DNA of 44,084 nucleotides from Clostridia bacterium. Its GTDB lineage: Bacteria; Bacillota; Clostridia; Oscillospirales; CAG-272. The position numbers were made by a program, and so were the translations under genes. Within the stretch, counting starts at the first letter, position 1. Each line of letters opens with the position of its first letter. The notes beneath the pieces are model-generated. The model worked only from the letters and a program-made list of their open reading frames with translations, searched no databases and was not told the origin of the DNA. The stretch covers positions 1 through 44,084 of the forward strand of contig JAFSSP010000014.1 in the NCBI GenBank assembly GCA_017450945.1, read 5' to 3'. Shown here one piece after another: positions 1,831 to 8,531 of the stretch.

Positions 1831-2175
1831 ATGAAAACAATTTGTGAACTTTTCAGAAAAGTGGAGACTTTTGGCCATTCTCGCTGCCTACCTATTGAGG
1901 GGCTTTTTTTATTTTTCTTCGAAACTGGTTGTGAAAATGGCGTTTTCGTCGGCTACCCATTGAGGGGAAAATCTATTTTCGAGGTTTTGACCCCCAAAAC
2001 GGCGTTTTCAGGACATTTAAGTAGAGGGGTATCGTAAAAGTGGAAACAAATTGTAAACATTGAGATTTCAGCCTTGTTTTTTGCCTAAAAATCGCCCTTC
2101 TTAGTGGAGGACAAAATTATTTATGCCTTTGACCGCCACGTTTTGTCCTTTTTTTGCCCTTCATTATAGAGGGGC
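1831..2175. repeat. Left array of short alternating motifs
   Basis: This gene-free stretch carries five motifs 63-79 bp apart. Type A is CTACCTATTGAGGGG or its variant (1882-1902, 1947-1967). Type B is CATTTAAGTAGAGGGG (2014-2029) with variants CGCCCTTCTTAGTGGAGG (2093-2110) and GCCCTTCATTATAGAGGGG (2156-2174). All but the TGGAGG variant end in GAGGG(G), and all follow T-rich leaders. Some leaders are shared with the right array: the about 45 bp before 1875 resembles 3052-3096. No credible protein-coding frame was found here. Confidence 0.75.
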
Positions 2176-2232
2176 TGATCTGAAAAGAAAAAGGATCCCG
2201 CTAAAACAGCGAAATCCTGATCCTTTTTCCTT

Positions 2233-2544
2233 TTATGCAGTGACAATCCCGGATTTGATCGGAAACGACGGATCCTTCTGCGTCATCGTCAGTAGCCGGC
2301 AAGCTGTGCCTTCAGGATGATTTCTTCCGGCTTCCCATGCTTCCACCGTTTTCGGAGAAACACCCATATATTTGGCGAAAAGTACCTGCGTCAGTCCGGT
2401 TGCAAGCCGAATGCTCTTAATGTCTTCTGCTGAAAAAGACTCCACCGGTTGAATCGAGAGAACCGTAACCTTTGCTTTGCCGCGACCTTTCTCGTAATCA
2501 ATTGCTTGATTCAGTCCGGTTTTCAGATCATCAAACAAACTCAT
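2233..2544 (-). CDS. HigA/NadS-type antitoxin with XRE helix-turn-helix
   Basis: The 103-residue protein has a C-terminal helix-turn-helix: 'RLATGLTQVLFAKYMGVS' followed by 'KTVEAWEAGR.HP.G'. This is the signature of HigA/NadS-like antitoxins, which neutralize a RelE-fold toxin and repress the operon. Its ATG overlaps the toxin stop in an ATGA, so translation is coupled. The toxin-first order is typical of HigBA modules. It probably stabilizes the surrounding mobile element. Its identity as an antitoxin rests on both the fold and the partner. Confidence 0.88.
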   Translation of the reverse strand: MSLFDDLKTGLNQAIDYEKGRGKAKVTVLSIQPVESFSAEDIKSIRLATGLTQVLFAKYMGVSPKTVEAWEAGRNHPEGTACRLLTMTQKDPSFPIKSGIVTA

Positions 2545-2903
2545 TTCTTTTCTCCTTTCTGTGCGTTCTCGGATAATTGATCTTCCAAGACCTTAATCAA
2601 TTGCCGCAATTCGTTGCACTCTTCATCAGATAAGTTTTCCTTTTCGTTCTTAGCATATGCGGTCAAGAGATAGATTTTTTCATAAATCTCGAAGTCCACA
2701 TAAATAACGCGTACGCTTCCGCTTTTTCCTCGTTGCTCAAATGCAAACCGCATTTTACGGATTCCACCGGTTTTCCGCATTACGGCGCCGACTTTCGGAT
2801 CCGCTAACAATTCTTCCTGCAATCTGCGTAAATCGTCGTCGGTTAGCCCAAGTCCTTTCCATTTGGAACTGAACAACGGAAGTTCAACAAACGCTCTTGT
2901 CAT
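2541..2903 (-). CDS. RelE/HigB-family toxin
   Basis: The 120-residue protein matches the HigB2/NadS-partner branch of the RelE/ParE superfamily: 'GGIRKMRFAFEQRGKSGSVRVIYVDF', then 'IYLLTAYAKNEKENLS'. Family members are mRNA interferases that cleave mRNA in the ribosomal A site. The ATG at 2903 has an AAGGAG ribosome binding site 6 bp upstream and a perfect consensus promoter. It is the first gene of a two-gene operon with the antitoxin. The pair sits between two arrays of short repeats, so it appears to be cargo or a maintenance module of the mobile element. Confidence 0.88.
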   Translation of the reverse strand: MTRAFVELPLFSSKWKGLGLTDDDLRRLQEELLADPKVGAVMRKTGGIRKMRFAFEQRGKSGSVRVIYVDFEIYEKIYLLTAYAKNEKENLSDEECNELRQLIKVLEDQLSENAQKGEKK

Positions 2904-2932
2904 ATGAAACTCCTTTTTCTTTTCTCACTAAC

Positions 2933-2961
2933 ATTATACCCTATTAAATAGTAGTTGTCAA
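2933..2961 (-). promoter_or_regulatory. Consensus promoter of the toxin-antitoxin operon with palindrome in the spacer
   Basis: On the minus strand TTGACA (2956-2961) and TATAAT (2933-2938) are separated by exactly 17 bp; both hexamers are perfect. The spacer holds CTATTAAATAG (2941-2951), a palindrome with 5-bp arms and the likely operator for autorepression by the antitoxin. The operator role is inferred. Confidence 0.85.
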
Positions 2962-2998
2962 CAGTTTTTTGAAAAAAGAAAAATTATTTTGTTCCAAG

Positions 2999-3409
2999 AC
3001 CGCCACTTTTTGCCGTTTTTCGCCCATTTAAGTAGAGGGATCTTCTTCAAATGAAAACAATCCGTGAATTTTTCAGAGAAGTGTAAAGTTTTGACCCTTT
3101 TCGCTGGCTACCTATTGAGGGGTACTTGTTAACTCTTTGTGAATTGTGTCTTTTTGGAGCTATATTTTTGCCGTTTTTTTGCCCTTCATTATAGAGGGAT
3201 ATTACAAATTTTTAAAAATCGGTTGTGAAAATGGCAATCTCGCTGCCTACCTATTGAGGGGGATTTGTTAATTCTTCGTGAATTTTGCATTTTAGGGGGT
3301 TCGTTTTTGCCCGTTTTTTGCCCATTTAAGTAGAGAGATCTTTTTGTTAAAAATTTTTTTGCCCTTCGCGTGGACAAATGCCTGTTTTCGCTGGCTACCT
3401 ATTGAGGGG
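2999..3409. repeat. Right array of short alternating motifs
   Basis: Six motifs alternate strictly B-A-B-A-B-A: B at 3021-3039, A at 3101-3122, B at 3181-3198, A at 3241-3261, B at 3320-3337, A at 3389-3409. A is CGCTGGCTACCTATTGAGGGG minus one G in places; B is GCCCATTTAAGTAGAGGG or GCCCTTCATTATAGAGGG. The A-to-B spacers resemble each other (both have a 'TTTGTTAA' type start and 'GTGAATT'), so the real unit is a composite of about 140-148 bp. The array ends just before the relaxase region. No coding frame was supported. Confidence 0.78.
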
Positions 3410-3508
3410 ATATTTTTGTGAAAGGAGATACATATGAACCGACCGAGAGACCATCCCAAGCAGTCAATTTGACCGAACATTTGCGCGCCACCTTTGTGGC
3501 TGAACAGC

Positions 3509-3660
3509 GCAAGCAAAGTGTTAGCAAAATGCAAGCAAATTTTGGTTATCTGTTGCATTTTGGTAGCAGGATAAGAAAAATGCAATTTTTTGCAAAATCA
3601 CATTTTTGAGAGTCCGCCGGCTCGGCGGACTGACGAGCAGGAAACCTGCCTCGTTTTAGA
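3509..3660 (+). other. Candidate origin of transfer (oriT) with twin hairpins
   Basis: Directly upstream of the relaxase are two adjacent stem-loops. The first has a perfect 9-bp stem, AGTCCGCCG/CGGCGGACT, with a GCT loop (3611-3631). The second pairs ACGAGCAGG with CCTGCCTCGT through one bulge and an AAA loop (3633-3654). Upstream lie a TGCAA-TTTT-TTGCA inverted repeat (about 3580-3594) and a direct repeat GCAAGCAAA (3509-3517 and 3531-3539). Inverted repeats beside a relaxase gene are typical of oriT. They could instead act as an attenuator in the relaxase leader. Confidence 0.5.
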
Positions 3661-3676: not shown

Positions 3677-4927
3677 ATTATCAGCAACAATCCGGTTATT
3701 TTCAACATCCGATACACGCCCTATGCCTTGAAAAAAGGTGCAACCGAACGTGAGATCGCAAAGCACAAAGCAGAGCGAGCTTTCTACGATATGTCTGCCG
3801 AAAAGAATATCTACGGTTACATCAACGCGGAGAAGAAACGAAAGAGAGTAGATACCGCTCAACATTATTTTGAAAAGAACTACGGAGTCTTCAACGGTGA
3901 CGGCTATATCACTCCATCTCAATTGGAAGAAATGAGAAAGCGAGCGCAAGCCGGCGAGAAAAATCTTTGGCACGGTTTCATTTCAATCGATCAGAAGAAC
4001 TCGTACAAGATCGAAACCCCTGAGCAGTGCATGATACTCGTCAAAAAGAACTTCGGACAGTTCTTTCGGGATATGGGACTTGCCCCCGACAATGTCGATC
4101 TGATGTGCGCCTTGCATCTTGATCGCGTCAAACACTATCATATCCATTTTGCCTTTTGGGAGAAGGAACCGAAGTGCAAATACCGTAAGAAAGATCCCGA
4201 ATACCGCCACAAAGGAACAATACAACAGTCTGTCATCGACAATATGAAGGCACGACTGTCGCTCTACATCACAGGTAAGGTTCAGGATCTCTACGATTTT
4301 CGTCAAAGGTCTCTCTACCAATTGCGTAAGTTGGGCGAGTATTACAGCGAAAAGCACGTTGACGACGAGATCAAAGAAGAAATGATGAAACTCTGCAAAG
4401 CTCTGCCTTCAGGCATTCGGTATGAATACGGCAGAAAAGAAATGCAACCTTACAGATGGCAAATAGACAGCATTGCGGTAAAACTGTTCTTGCGCGACAG
4501 GGAGACAAGCAAAGCCGACGAACGTGTGTGGAAAAAATTCAGCGAAATCCGTCAAAAGATCAAAGAGACGTGTGGGGAGAATTCCGAAGCAACCGCATAT
4601 GTGGACAAGCTGGAAGAGGACTATAAGCAAAGAGTCGGAAATATCGTCCTTCGCGCGGCAATGTTCATCAAAGCCGAGCATCGGGAACTGAACCCAAAAC
4701 GAAAGTACAAGGTCAACGACAATCGACTCAAGCGCCGGCTTGCCATTTCCGAGCGGAACGTCGGCAAGCGCTTTCAATATCTTTTCGAGGGCTTTGCAAC
4801 CGGTCTTCTCGAACTGGAACGGGACTACTCCCACAGATTACAGGACATCGAAGAGGAAATAGAGGAAGAACGAAAACAGCAAGAACAAAAAGTGCAAGCA
4901 AGCTCAAAGTATAATTGGAGCAAATAA
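3677..4927 (+). CDS. MobL/MobP-type relaxase
   Basis: Relaxases nick one strand at oriT and pilot the DNA during conjugative mobilization. The 'HLDRVKHYHIHFAFWEKEP' segment holds the HxHxxF-like metal-binding histidines of the family, and the N-terminus 'FNIRYTPYALKKGA' is typical. The C-terminal third is charged and helical. No ATG gives a sensible start. A strong GGAGG (3668-3672) precedes ATT at 3677 and ATC at 3680, so a non-AUG start at 3677 is proposed (416 residues). The frame stays open back to a TTG at 3590, but that would translate through both oriT hairpins and has no ribosome binding site. No conjugation (type IV secretion) genes are seen, so transfer must use a helper. Confidence 0.82.
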   Translation: MISNNPVIFNIRYTPYALKKGATEREIAKHKAERAFYDMSAEKNIYGYINAEKKRKRVDTAQHYFEKNYGVFNGDGYITPSQLEEMRKRAQAGEKNLWHGFISIDQKNSYKIETPEQCMILVKKNFGQFFRDMGLAPDNVDLMCALHLDRVKHYHIHFAFWEKEPKCKYRKKDPEYRHKGTIQQSVIDNMKARLSLYITGKVQDLYDFRQRSLYQLRKLGEYYSEKHVDDEIKEEMMKLCKALPSGIRYEYGRKEMQPYRWQIDSIAVKLFLRDRETSKADERVWKKFSEIRQKIKETCGENSEATAYVDKLEEDYKQRVGNIVLRAAMFIKAEHRELNPKRKYKVNDNRLKRRLAISERNVGKRFQYLFEGFATGLLELERDYSHRLQDIEEEIEEERKQQEQKVQASSKYNWSK

Positions 4928-5133: not shown

Positions 5134-5493
5134 ATGAACAGTAACGAAATCTTACGAAAAGCCGAATCCGGACAAGGGCTGACAGTTGAGGAGATCAAGA
5201 TCTATCAACGCCTTGTCAAGCCAACAAAGCACACCTATGGAAAGTACGGCACTTTGGCAAAGAAGTACCTTGAAGAAGATAATCCCGGCAAATACTGGTC
5301 GATTGAAAGTCTGCCTGCGTATTTACACGGGATCGACAAAGCGGCAGACAGTATGTTTGACTCAATGTACGCTAAACTTTCTGCTTCCGAGCGTTACCGT
5401 AAAACCGGAGATTTTCTCCACGACCTACGGATCGAAACAGAAATCCGCAATCGTATTGAAACCGAGATTCTACAAGAAATTGTCTATGTTTGA
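5134..5493 (+). CDS. tnpV: TnpV-like transposon protein
   Basis: The 119-residue protein resembles the TnpV family of Tn4451-like elements, with the typical core 'YGKYGTLAKKYLEEDNPGKYWSI', a following 'YLHGIDKAADSMFDSMYAKL', and a C-terminal helix ending 'ILQEIVYV'. The function of TnpV is not established. The ATG at 5134 follows AGGAGG (5122-5127) at ideal distance. It opens a tightly packed block that runs to the serine recombinase and shares the promoter at 5060-5088. Confidence 0.75.
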   Translation: MNSNEILRKAESGQGLTVEEIKIYQRLVKPTKHTYGKYGTLAKKYLEEDNPGKYWSIESLPAYLHGIDKAADSMFDSMYAKLSASERYRKTGDFLHDLRIETEIRNRIETEILQEIVYV

Positions 5494-5505
5494 GAGGTAC
5501 GGATC

Positions 5506-5646
5506 ATGGAAAAAGAAACGATGCAAAAAACTGTATCCATTGCCGGCAAAACCGCAAGAGTCGGACTTGGTTTTGGGCTGATCCTTTTGGATGTGGCGGC
5601 AAGTGCCGTCGGCGCAATTCTTTGCGCAGTTACTTCGCAAGATTGA
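5506..5646 (+). CDS. Small hydrophobic protein, 46 residues
   Basis: This short gene lies between the TnpV-like gene and the next small gene, 12 bp after the TnpV stop, with a GAGAGG upstream. After a charged N-terminus ('MEKETMQKT') the protein has a Gly/Ala/Leu-rich hydrophobic stretch, 'VGLGFGLILLDVAASAVGAI', which could form one membrane helix. The next gene's ribosome binding site overlaps its stop, which supports translation. I do not recognise a family. Confidence 0.5.
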   Translation: MEKETMQKTVSIAGKTARVGLGFGLILLDVAASAVGAILCAVTSQD

Positions 5647-5656
5647 GGTGAAAGAG

Positions 5657-5869
5657 ATGAAAAAAGAGCAAAAAGTGTCAAAAGACAAGAGATATGAGGA
5701 TAGACACAAGGAAGAACGAAAAGCAAAGTGTATGATCTGGGGGACAAGCGTAGAAAGACCGCTTGCCGAAGAGATTAATGCGTTTCTCAAGGCGAATGGC
5801 TTCACCAAAGTCCAGCTGATTAGGGCTGGCTATAAAACTCTTGCAGAAAAAGCCTCAAAGAACAAATAA
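5657..5869 (+). CDS. Small basic ribbon-helix-helix-like protein
   Basis: The 70-residue protein has a highly basic N-terminus followed by 'MIWGTSVERPLAEEINAFLKANGFTKVQLIRAGYKTL'. That is a short strand, then two helices, the pattern of ribbon-helix-helix DNA-binding proteins of mobile elements. The ATG at 5657 follows GAGGTG at 6 bp. The frame is open further upstream but overlaps the hydrophobic gene. A relaxosome accessory or repressor role is plausible, with the oriT, the inverted repeat near 5100 or the short-repeat arrays as possible targets. This is inference from fold and position. Confidence 0.6.
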   Translation: MKKEQKVSKDKRYEDRHKEERKAKCMIWGTSVERPLAEEINAFLKANGFTKVQLIRAGYKTLAEKASKNK

Positions 5870-5887
5870 ACGCTATCGTCTTTCCTT

Positions 5888-6160
5888 GTGGGAACGGGTA
5901 AAAATAAACGGATTCCCCGCCGTCCGAGAAGGAAAAACATTATAGAAGCAAACAGACTTATCATTTATCAAGAACAGCCCGACGGCTCTCTTGTAAGAAG
6001 TCGGGAAAAGAAAATCGGCAATACGATCTACACCGTGATTGCCAGACAAAAAGAGGACGCCAAAGAAACGGCGTTCGACATCACAAAAAGACTGATCGAG
6101 CGTAGTGCCGAAAGTCTTATCCAACAGAAACCGTTTGAAGGTTGCAATTCGGGAGGTTAA
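5888..6160 (+). CDS. TnpW-like small transposon protein
   Basis: The C-terminal part reads 'KKIGNTIYTVIARQKEDA' followed by 'ITKRLIERSAESL', matching the TnpW pattern (an 'IG.T.Y.V' strand followed by a terminal helix with 'K..RLI'). The gene is immediately upstream of the recombinase, 3 bp before its ATG, as expected in Tn4451-like blocks. The GTG at 5888 has no clear ribosome binding site. An AAGGA at 5929-5933 lies 5 bp before an in-frame ATT at 5939, so the translated protein may be only 73 residues. The function of TnpW is unknown. Confidence 0.62.
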   Translation: MGTGKNKRIPRRPRRKNIIEANRLIIYQEQPDGSLVRSREKKIGNTIYTVIARQKEDAKETAFDITKRLIERSAESLIQQKPFEGCNSGG

Positions 6161-6163
6161 AGA

Positions 6164-7816
6164 ATGAATTTGCAACTACAACAAAACAAACATAAAAGAA
6201 CCAAGAACGCAGAAGAACAGTACACGGCGCTCTATTGCCGCCTGTCATGTGACGACGATCTTCAAGGCGACAGCAACAGTATCAAAAACCAGAAGATTCT
6301 CTTAAAGCAGTACGCCGACGAGCATCGGTTTAAGAACATCCGATACTATGTGGACGATGGCTTTTCGGGAACGAACTTCGACCGACCGGATTTCAAACGA
6401 ATGATTTCAGATATCGACGACGGACTAATCTCCACGGTTATTGTAAAGGATATGTCCCGATTCGGAAGAGATCATATTTTGGTCGGGTACTACACAAAGT
6501 ATTACCTGCCCGAAGCAGACATCAGATTTATCGCTATCTACGACCAAGTGGACAGCGAAACCAATCCCGACGACGATATTACGCCTTTCAAAAATATTCT
6601 CAATGAGATGTATGCAAAGGATTGCAGTCGTAAGATCAAGGCAGTCGTCAAGGCAAAAGGCAATTCGGGAAAACATATCGCATATATTCCACCACTTGGA
6701 TATATGAAAGATCCGAATGACAAGGAAAAGTGGATAATTGAAGAGAACGGCGCGGCAATCGTCAGAGAGATCTTCAGCCTTTGTGTCAAAGGATACGGTC
6801 CTACACAGATTGCAAGAATTTTGACTGAGAACGGCGTTGAAACACCTGTCATTCATTGTAAGCGGTTGGGGTTGCCTATTTCAATTAAGTTAAAAGAAGG
6901 GTCTGAAGTATGGTGTACCGAAAGTGTTTTGCATATTCTTTCCAACATGGCATATCTCGGTCATACAGTCAATTTCAAATCTTTCAAAAAATCTTACAAA
7001 GCTAAGAAACGGATAGACGCGCCAAAGGAAGACTGGGTAATTTTTGAGAACACACAAGAGCCGATTATTGATCAGGAAACGTTCGATACTGTTCAAAAAA
7101 TCCGTCAAGGAAAACGAAGGAATGCCGATATGGGAGAGCCGAATATGCTTTCCGGGATGCTTTACTGCGCCGACTGCGGACAGAAAATGTATCTCTGCCG
7201 TTGCACGACAATGAAACAGGCGGAATATTTTAACTGTTCATCGTATCGGAAAAAGAAAAAGAAGAGTTGTTCTTCTCATCAGATCATGGCGCACACCGTG
7301 GAAGAGTTGATCAAAAACGACTTGCAATACACCATCCGATTTGCAAGCGAGAACAAAGAGGAGTTCTACAACATTCTGAAAAATCGAAGTGACGCAAAAA
7401 CGAAACGCGAACTTAGTCAGTCTTTGAAAGAGGTTGCGGAGATTGAGGATCGGATGAAAACTCTTGATAAGATCATCCAAAGTCTTTACGAAGATAAGGT
7501 TGCCGGAAAGCTCTCCGAAGAACGTTATTTGAAGATGAGTGAGAACTACGAAACCGAACAAGCTGAACTCAAGGAAAAGGCAGAGAAACTGAAAGGCAGT
7601 ATTCAGCACTCCAAAAACCAAATGGACGATATTCTCAAGTTTCTTGCCATTGTGGACAAGTACAGCGATTTTCAGGAACTGACGCCTGAGATCCTTCGGG
7701 CGTTTATCGACAAGGTGCTGATCCACGAGAAGCAGAAGGTTGACGGACATTACAGGCACACCATCGAGATCATCTACAACTTTGTCGGAGCTGTGGAACA
7801 CCCCAATTTCGACTGA
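6164..7816 (+). CDS. TnpX-type large serine recombinase
   Basis: The 550-residue protein catalyses excision and insertion of the element as a circle. It has an N-terminal resolvase domain ('ALYCRLSCDDD', with the nucleophile Ser in 'GDSNSI', then 'DGFSGTNFDRPDF' and 'IVKDMSRFGRD'), a recombinase domain ('IPPLGYMKDP...GPTQIARILTENGV'), a zinc ribbon ('CADCGQKMYLC', then further Cys residues), a coiled coil around residues 415-480, and a C-terminal DUF4368-like end. All parts are intact, so the element may still move. The ATG at 6164 follows GGGAGG. Confidence 0.93.
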   Translation: MNLQLQQNKHKRTKNAEEQYTALYCRLSCDDDLQGDSNSIKNQKILLKQYADEHRFKNIRYYVDDGFSGTNFDRPDFKRMISDIDDGLISTVIVKDMSRFGRDHILVGYYTKYYLPEADIRFIAIYDQVDSETNPDDDITPFKNILNEMYAKDCSRKIKAVVKAKGNSGKHIAYIPPLGYMKDPNDKEKWIIEENGAAIVREIFSLCVKGYGPTQIARILTENGVETPVIHCKRLGLPISIKLKEGSEVWCTESVLHILSNMAYLGHTVNFKSFKKSYKAKKRIDAPKEDWVIFENTQEPIIDQETFDTVQKIRQGKRRNADMGEPNMLSGMLYCADCGQKMYLCRCTTMKQAEYFNCSSYRKKKKKSCSSHQIMAHTVEELIKNDLQYTIRFASENKEEFYNILKNRSDAKTKRELSQSLKEVAEIEDRMKTLDKIIQSLYEDKVAGKLSEERYLKMSENYETEQAELKEKAEKLKGSIQHSKNQMDDILKFLAIVDKYSDFQELTPEILRAFIDKVLIHEKQKVDGHYRHTIEIIYNFVGAVEHPNFD

Positions 7817-7875: not shown

Positions 7876-7934
7876 GAATGAGCCGCCGCTTTACCGAAAA
7901 TTCCCTATGGAACTTACGGTAAACTCCCCTTTTT

Positions 7935-8531
7935 TTATTTGTCGTAGGACGGATTGATCGCGTAGAAATTTTTCTGGTTCATCTGTTCGGTCGCTCTGCG
8001 AAGTGCGTCTCCGAAGCGTTGGTAGTGTACGATCTCGCGCTCGCGCAGATAGCGGATCGGGTCGAGAACGTCTGGATCGTCGCAAAGGCGAATGATGTTG
8101 TCGTAGGTGACTCTTGCTTTCTGCTCGGCGGCAAGGTCTTCGTTCAGGTCTGCGATCACATCTCCCTTGACGCCGATGTACTTCATGTCGTCGGGCACGC
8201 CCGAAGCCGAGGCGGGGTAGACGCCGACCGTGTGATCGACAAAATAGGTGGCATACGGCGTGCCGGCAATGTCATCAGGGCTGAGATCGCGCGTCAGTTG
8301 ATAGAGGATGGCGCCGACCATCTCGAGGTGCGCCAGCTCCTCGGTGCCGACGTCGGTGAGAATCCCCACCACATCGCGGTAGGGCATGGAGAAACGCTGA
8401 TTGAGATAGCGCATCGAGGCGGCCAGCTCTCCGTCCGGGCCGCCGAGCTGAGAGATGATGATGCCGGCAAGGTTGTGGTTCGGGGTTTTGATTTTGACCG
8501 GGTATTGCAGTTTTCGATCGTAGGTCCACAT
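7935..8531 (-). CDS. cotJC: Spore coat protein CotJC, manganese-catalase family
   Basis: The 198-residue protein starts 'MWTYDRKLQYPVKI' and contains 'QLGGPDGELAASMRYL' and 'DVGTEELAHLEMVGA', which carry the Glu and His ligands of the di-manganese site in this family. CotJC is assembled into the inner coat of endospores and may detoxify hydrogen peroxide. The ATG has AAGGAG upstream. It is the last gene of cotJABC, here in the usual order, and is strong evidence for endospore formation. Confidence 0.95.
   Translation of the reverse strand: MWTYDRKLQYPVKIKTPNHNLAGIIISQLGGPDGELAASMRYLNQRFSMPYRDVVGILTDVGTEELAHLEMVGAILYQLTRDLSPDDIAGTPYATYFVDHTVGVYPASASGVPDDMKYIGVKGDVIADLNEDLAAEQKARVTYDNIIRLCDDPDVLDPIRYLREREIVHYQRFGDALRRATEQMNQKNFYAINPSYDK

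Follow-up and report, generated by a model that had tools for sequence, protein, structure and literature searches.

The repeats at 1863-3409 of the window, by which we mean the whole stretch of 44,084 nucleotides that was analysed, are eleven copies of a site of about 40 bp. We read them tentatively (probability of about 45%) as a row of promoter-like, activator-dependent control sites, which would face the mobilization genes of a mobilizable element integrated here. Such a role in transcription control is suggested by two observations made at related loci, namely the position of the last copy relative to leaders and start codons, and the occurrence of a gene for a sigma-like protein before single copies of the site.

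All eleven sites lie on the plus strand and a toxin-antitoxin (TA) pair splits the array into a left and a right part. The features of this region are the following.

1863..1902, plus strand: site 1, type A, leftmost copy of the array (core search, alignment, motif fit)
1928..1967, plus strand: site 2, type A, CTACCCATTGAGGGG (core search, alignment, motif fit)
1990..2029, plus strand: site 3, type B (core search, motif fit)
2073..2112, plus strand: site 4, degenerate second B variant (motif fit, 16.3 bits)
2135..2174, plus strand: site 5, second B variant, TTCATTATAGAGGGG (core search, motif fit)
2233..2544, minus strand: TA pair, antitoxin-like gene, lying within the array (NadS, NF041265)
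2541..2903, minus strand: toxin-like partner gene of the TA pair, cargo (absent from the uninterrupted array of the relative G006)
2933..2961, minus strand: promoter-like TTGACA-17-TATAAT upstream of the TA pair (12/12 matches; unlike the array sites)
3001..3040, plus strand: site 6, type B (core search, motif fit)
3083..3122, plus strand: site 7, type A (core search, alignment, motif fit)
3159..3198, plus strand: site 8, second B variant (core search, motif fit)
3222..3261, plus strand: site 9, type A (core search, alignment, motif fit)
3299..3338, plus strand: site 10, type B, with GAGAG (core search, motif fit)
3370..3409, plus strand: site 11, type A, last copy (24 nt separate the end of its G-run from an ATG preceded by a Shine-Dalgarno sequence, SD-ATG)
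3433..3471, plus strand: short leader reading frame MNRPRDHPKQSI, immediately after the array (by eye)
3686..4927, plus strand: MobL relaxase, encoded by the first long gene after the array (PF18555, E 2.7e-19)
5146..7816, plus strand: rest of the element, with a TnpV-like protein, a 70-aa protein, a TnpW-like protein and a large serine recombinase (Pfam, NCBIfam)

The antitoxin-like gene matched the NadS family with an E-value of 6.6e-16 and 58.4 bits, against a cut-off of 60, and the toxin-like gene had no NCBIfam match at E<=0.01. Upstream of the array there is a host-type gene with a terminator-like repeat. An inverted repeat was seen at 3519-3568, near the right end of the array.

The original prediction had described eleven short motifs of two types that lie on both sides of the TA pair and alternate strictly in the right array. 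The eleven copies are real, but they carry three cores and not two: five are of type A, three of type B and three of a second B variant, one of these being degenerate. The A core, CTACC[T/C]ATTGAGGGG, was found at 1888, 1953, 3108, 3247 and 3395 (five copies against 0.15 expected, a number reached by none of 100 shuffles). The B core, CATTTAAGTAGAGGG, lies at 2014, 3025 and 3323, the last copy reading GAGAG with one mismatch; when up to three mismatches were allowed, five matches were obtained across the window, three of them inside the array (0.55 expected). The second B variant, TTCATTATAGAGGG, is exact at 2160 and 3185, and this short core was not above chance at three mismatches, since 38 of 100 shuffles reached three copies. 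The degenerate eleventh copy, TTCTTAGTGGAGGA at 2098, was recognized by eye and then scored by the motif fit; with the B-core model R3 it scored 34.8 bits, being itself part of the training set of that model. The strict alternation holds for the right array (B, A, second B variant, A, B, A) and fails in the left one (A, A, B, second B variant, second B variant). That the two arrays share leaders was borne out by 82 nt at 1830 and 3050 that are 82% identical, and so was the placement of all copies on one strand. The repeats are also non-coding, as had been proposed: the cores fall in different frames (LPIEG, YPLRG, HLSRG; frames read by eye), which led us to reject a decayed coding gene.

The conserved unit is the ~40-bp site, and the 15-mers that had been taken for the repeat are the ends of it. 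In the window and its relatives, 68 A copies aligned without gaps over 40 columns, GTnAnnTTTTnGCCnTTTTCGCTGGCTACCTATTGAGGGG. The site family has GTnAnnTTTTnGCC as its 5′ box and TATTGAGGGG or AAGTAGAGGG as its 3′ box, and the stretch between the two is variable. B and the second B variant share the register of A, with the 5′ box, the variable middle and the G-rich 3′ box. An iterative motif fit on the forward strand of 17 arrays, with the duplicate L059 left out, gave 118 sites, the control counts being two on the reverse strand and one in each of five shuffles. The figure of 118 is a lower bound, since the fit misses C/D-type cores: in L048 one site was found and about six more were seen by eye, and missed cores (TTCCCA..., GTCCTAGG..., GTAAGCAACG...) were likewise seen in L031, L039, L041, L043 and L068. 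A pair in L073 that is 38 bp apart is close to the minimum distance set in the fit.

The site family is limited to the level of the window's order. The exact A core occurred in 5 of the 60 relatives searched, and the site model R1 matched 5 of 35 genomes of the genus and, at the level of the order, 19 of 295, where a genome carries between 1 and 12 copies; the R1 loci viewed from the order sample appear genuine by eye. Among 311 genomes sampled across the class R1 matched three. Two belong to the order, one of them being the genome of the window; the third match (G355) lies at the end of a coding gene, lacks the G-run and was taken as chance. A 19-letter form scanned in 84,980 species genomes returned 28 stretches, of which 25 were kept as real, in Clostridia-type records such as Faecalibacterium, Pseudoflavonifractor, Hominifimenecus and many metagenome-assembled genomes; those from an archaeon, Thalassovita and Gemmataceae (L029, L038 and L056) were dropped by eye as chance matches. 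Over 800 nt the Faecalibacterium prausnitzii locus L050 agrees in every letter with one in G265, a genome of the window's order. The C-core model R2 matched 6 of the 295 order genomes, four of which also matched R1; type-C sites share arrays with A in four of the six, one match being a mixed array with an A-like last copy, and the match in G168, where no array is found, was taken as chance. R3 matched only the window's own genome among the 295. B-like cores were seen by eye in L035, L039, L044 and L049.

As had been anticipated for a mobile-element sequence, the sites are not strewn over the host chromosome: the window's genome (1.47 Mb, 84% complete) contained no further A site within one mismatch and no further R1 match at E<=0.001. 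The tie to mobile elements was likewise upheld by the genes behind the relatives' sites. In 14 loci, 39 of 51 downstream ORFs were compared with Pfam, and among the matches listed ParB occurred six times, serine recombinase five, MobA-type relaxase four, tyrosine integrase three, DUF6291 three, NikA-like three, Mob_Pre two and MobL once. Plasmid sequences gave no match by blastn. Ten single exact 15-mer matches were seen in viral contigs, as expected by chance.

A specific link to MobL was not supported: a MobL relative is present in 4 of the 47 loci scanned, and MobA-type and MobV relaxases as well as both integrase classes also stand behind sites, which led us to discard a MobL-specific oriT element. 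The original prediction had further offered the sites as binding sites of the small protein encoded at 5657-5869, which it called RHH-like. This 70-aa protein had no Pfam match and its relatives occur in 7 of the 47 loci with the window counted, a lower bound because many loci are short, and we do not retain that proposal. R1 sites precede conjugative-type operons and also MobL elements. In four loci (L069, L070, L078 and L079), and by eye in L072, the 3′ part of a pyruvate phosphate dikinase gene precedes the site, which suggests that these elements have inserted downstream of that gene and that the site is close to their left end. For the window's own element, which carries MobL, the large serine recombinase and the TnpV-like and TnpW-like proteins behind the array, flank comparison aimed at its ends and empty site gave a right flank in relatives and no left flank.

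We have then measured where the last copy lies, as the distance from the end of the last PWM site, in the 38 loci that were left once duplicates were removed. In 24 of them the last copy is followed either by an SD-ATG, at 24-49 nt in 8 loci, or by a boxA-like string, at 2-52 nt in 16 others; a chance rate was computed for the boxA-like string only. The SD-ATG distances were 24 nt in the window, 25 in L014 and L035, 34 in L047, 36 in L015 and L118, 39 in L016 and 49 in L073. The remaining 14 loci had neither a leader nor a start codon at the expected distance. Within 160 nt, a boxA-like string followed the site in 19 of 45 loci (16 of 42 without three duplicates), where chance would give 0.02 per 160 nt. 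No boxA-like leader stands behind the array in the window. The pemK RNA (RF02913) stands behind the site in L034 and L050, and in L018, L030 and L075 the order is reversed, the site being behind the leader. Openings similar to the leader frame at 3433..3471 were noted in L014, L015 and L016.

The second line of evidence is the sigma-like gene. In seven distinct loci (L040, L047, L052, L063, L067, L071 and L081) of the 47 scanned (43 distinct), a gene of one sigma-like family ends just before the site. The C-terminal part of these proteins matches sigma-70 region 4: Sigma70_r4_2 was matched at 5e-6 and 9e-6 in two proteins and at 0.015 in a third, PHROG sigma factors were matched down to 4e-10, and one protein matched PRK06930, "positive control sigma-like factor," at 1.1e-7, far below the family cut-off. 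Searching from the protein side at E<=1e-8 gave 13 genes in 12 of the 295 order genomes, and a site stands behind 10 of the 13 by PWM or R1, or 11 when a diverged copy recognized by eye is counted. The site and the protein have a common range (19 and 12 of the 295 genomes, respectively), and their genome sets overlap in five genomes (Fisher p 0.0004), in which the R1 site starts 6-29 bp behind the protein match. Six of the other eight sigma-like genes are strong matches, and five of these six have a PWM site of 20-31 bits located 5-13 nt behind the match, although G121, G175 and G329:C24 among them are the same sequence. The sixth, G329:C10, has the diverged copy together with a boxA-like string, and the two weak matches (about 1e-9) have no PWM site behind them. 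The class sample of 311 genomes contained no match to the protein at 1e-15, an empty answer that by itself is no proof. B and the other cores were never found as a single copy behind a sigma-like gene, save for the diverged G329:C10 copy. At E<=1e-8 the gene was absent from the window's genome and from the array-bearing genomes G167, G222, G247, G263 and G299, and hence no regulator was found for the arrays.

Taken as control sites, the copies would work as follows. A site of ~40 bp has the size of an RNA polymerase promoter footprint; the G-run (GAGGGG) would lie at or near the transcript start and the 5′ box (GTTGTA/GTnAAC/TTGACT) at about -35, so that RNA would begin at the sites. The single sites would be the main-operon promoters, or controls, of conjugative elements of the same order, in the layout sigma-like gene, site, boxA-like leader, and the factor acting at the site would most naturally be the sigma-like protein. 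The window's element, which has no sigma-like gene of its own, would carry in tandem copies of the sites of potential helpers, and an active helper would then switch on the relaxase operon of the mobilizable element. Several observations count against this scheme: the array sites are not canonical sigma-A promoters, no sigma-like gene was found in the window's genome or in five array-bearing genomes, orthologous sites are no better conserved than spacers, and 14 of 38 loci have neither leader nor start codon at the expected distance. An extension of this scheme, which we regard as doubtful, would make the array a receiver of many inputs: the stacked cores would each fit the sigma-like activator of another conjugative element, any such helper could trigger transfer, and the array would grow, shrink and swap cargo by recombination with itself.

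It is unlikely, in our view, that the sites instead act as operators or decoys. They would then bind a regulator of conjugative elements, whether repressor or activator, and their many copies would titrate it or keep the operon off, while the individual copies need not be promoters. A fixed bipartite site in many copies suits this idea, as do its weak sigma-A boxes. Scanning for canonical sigma-A promoters returned none on the plus strand at the array sites and a perfect one on the minus strand for the TA pair; TTGACA-like and TATAAT-like peaks at site columns 2 and 27 were weak and 19 bp apart (16-18 bp in the canonical test), and a canonical sigma-A promoter was therefore rejected. Binding on one face of the DNA would agree with the preferred spacings of 54-66, 71-77 and 81-87 bp and with an excess near an 11-bp period (p 0.0003-0.0005; 0.03 without repeated values per array). 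However, the period that fits best is 11.2 bp, which departs from the helical repeat, and the helical phasing of the sites is weak. Single copies are moreover placed exactly as a promoter should be, and a decoy needs no orientation, yet the fitted copies all lie on one strand.

Partition or incompatibility sites are also rather improbable. The array would then be a centromere-like row for ParB-type proteins, by which the element is segregated or displaces its helper. ParB was the family met most often behind the sites (6 of the 39 proteins, among the matches listed), the single site of L034 has a ParA gene behind it, and SGI1 bears the parS of its IncC helper, as described in the available part of the source (PMC10954446). 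The parS sites given there are inverted repeats, whereas the A profile showed no dyad or internal repeat beyond shuffled columns, its dyad score being below that of 388 of 500 column shuffles; this rejects a dyad-symmetric parS, in a test that covers ParB-type parS and not non-ParB centromeres made of direct repeats. No ParB was among the genes named in the window's element, and parS would not explain the order of sigma-like gene, site and boxA.

Could the array be a relic of tandem duplication and recombination, with a functional last site and the other, non-functional copies kept as a substrate for swapping cargo such as the TA pair? We think this improbable, although recombination itself has left a trace. 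The array of G006, which lacks the TA pair, runs along with the window up to 2097 and rejoins it at 3022; each of these points lies within the GCCC of a copy, which indicates that array copies recombine with one another. The TA pair behaves as cargo between copies; G006 has AbiE-like genes, named by eye, outside its array. Orthologous sites were no better conserved than spacers in eight pairs of relatives (1108/1240 vs 1622/1828, p 0.60), a comparison blurred in the L041, L043 and L062 pairs by C/D cores within the "spacer" class. On the other hand, the end boxes were better kept than the middles (92.2% vs 86.4%, p 0.001) and slightly better than the spacers (p 0.015), and arrays are found again in elements that are unrelated and differ in their relaxases and integrases.

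It is very unlikely that the copies are replication iterons, which had been among the roles first proposed, or that the excised circle has its origin here. The copies are direct repeats in one orientation beside mobilization genes, and AAA_25 (Pfam) proteins, which we take to be of the RepA type, follow the sites in L018, L030 and L048. Against this, most single-copy loci have one site before a leader RNA, and the first gene behind the site varies by element (MobL, DUF6291, ParA, MobC-like or AAA), so no shared initiator was seen.

Promoters of single-subunit polymerases have a start that resembles the G-run of the array. A T7-type promoter array, or a CRISPR-like or small-RNA array of repeated cores with variable middles, nevertheless seems hardly credible: PF00940, the single-subunit RNA polymerase, was found in 0 of 40 relatives (the control genomes being silent too), the copies differ and are spaced at 54-132 bp with no cas among the genes named in the element, neither strand of the right array folded better than shuffles (z +1.39 and +1.26), and all Rfam scores in the array were below gathering level among the matches listed, which gives no support to a structured RNA element or to the small-RNA template put forward at the outset.

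The original prediction had stated that no element of this design was described, and our searches agree: a letter search of 5.39 million papers for six motif strings gave no hit, and a keyword search of literature record listings returned no description of such an array. The site family, its tandem multi-core design and its sigma-like partner are thus undescribed in the literature searched, and the principle of control by a helper is likely known. In the available portions of the literature, most descriptions of such listening to a helper concern Bacteroides elements and a few islands of Gammaproteobacteria. Here we have a large and sharply defined family of putative control sites on mobile elements of gut bacteria, in the order that holds Faecalibacterium. 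The candidate activator gene and the arrays together make it a testable question which helper an element follows, and the site model is a sequence handle by which the main operon and the left end of such an element can be located.

The window's element itself resembles Tn4451/TnpX-type elements in its large serine recombinase and its TnpV- and TnpW-like proteins, and differs in its relaxase, which is MobL and not the MobV of Tn4451; the Tn4451-type literature, in the portions available, mentions no such array. The leaders recall boxA/nut antitermination leaders and the pemK RNA, in that a boxA-like string follows many single sites, whereas the 40-bp site precedes the leader, lies outside the Rfam family and, in the window, occurs without such a leader. 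RinA and ArpU are sigma-like late regulators of phages. As with Xpf of the phage PBSX, a small sigma-region-4-like gene stands directly upstream of an operon that it possibly switches on; unlike the case of phage late regulators, no phage genes were named for the 39 downstream ORFs among the best 25 of 32 families listed, and the putative relation lies below family cut-offs. The parS of IncC on SGI1, in the part of that work available, offers a precedent for helper-linked repeated sites on a mobilizable element, with inverted repeats that the sites here do not have.

The closest parallel for the preferred reading, a row of activator-dependent control sites, is provided by the AcaCD/SetCD-responsive promoters. 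Mobilizable elements such as SGI1 and the other MGIs, islands mobilized by IncC plasmids and SXT-type ICEs, keep promoter motifs that answer to the activator of their helper, according to the available parts of two reports (PMC5704250, PMC4605294). That system, as far as those parts describe it, has single activator sites with a 13-bp inverted repeat at several genes in Gammaproteobacteria, whereas the sites here are tandem, ~40 bp long, without a dyad, of several cores and placed before one operon, and the activator is a candidate only. What the two have in common is that the same motif stands before genes of conjugative-type and of mobilizable elements, and that a candidate activator gene, predicted here, lies beside the motif in the conjugative elements.

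Comparison of the window with G006, a relative that carries an uninterrupted array and lacks the toxin-antitoxin (TA) pair, placed the 2097 / 3022 junction inside two motif copies, with 924 bp, including the TA pair, being gained or lost at this position. Judged from sequence, the junction reads as cargo exchange through recombination between motif copies. Two other features lie in the window:

3188-3216, - strand: TTTAAA-17-TATAAT promoter-like match, from the promoter scan
7882-7942: hairpin-like sequence, from sequence comparison with relatives

The TATAAT of the promoter-like match falls within site 8 (3159-3198, the second B variant), the array itself being on the + strand. Further copies of the hairpin-like sequence were found in genomes G000 (contigs C27, C11 and C17) and G014; it is a repeat of the host genus, dispersed among intergenic regions.

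Inspection by eye revealed very short reading frames adjoining the 3' end of the array at window 3433 and at loci L014, L015, L016, L035 and L044. These frames are of the MNRPRDHPK type, with MC and MR in L035 and L044, and could perhaps encode leader peptides. The string GAATACTGCCCCCAC recurs just 3' of the last site in L041, L043, L030 and L018.

The pyruvate phosphate dikinase gene is apparently an integration point with the elements then lying behind it (L069, L070, L078 and L079; L072 by eye), each containing a single site plus a boxA-like leader. At L031 (one locus with L059), a mobile-element protein encoded at 5604-6233 (- strand), ~600 bp upstream of a long array, joins sigma-70 region 4 to the RNA polymerase alpha C-terminal domain (domain-model search: alpha models to 3.3e-15, sigma70 6.4e-12).
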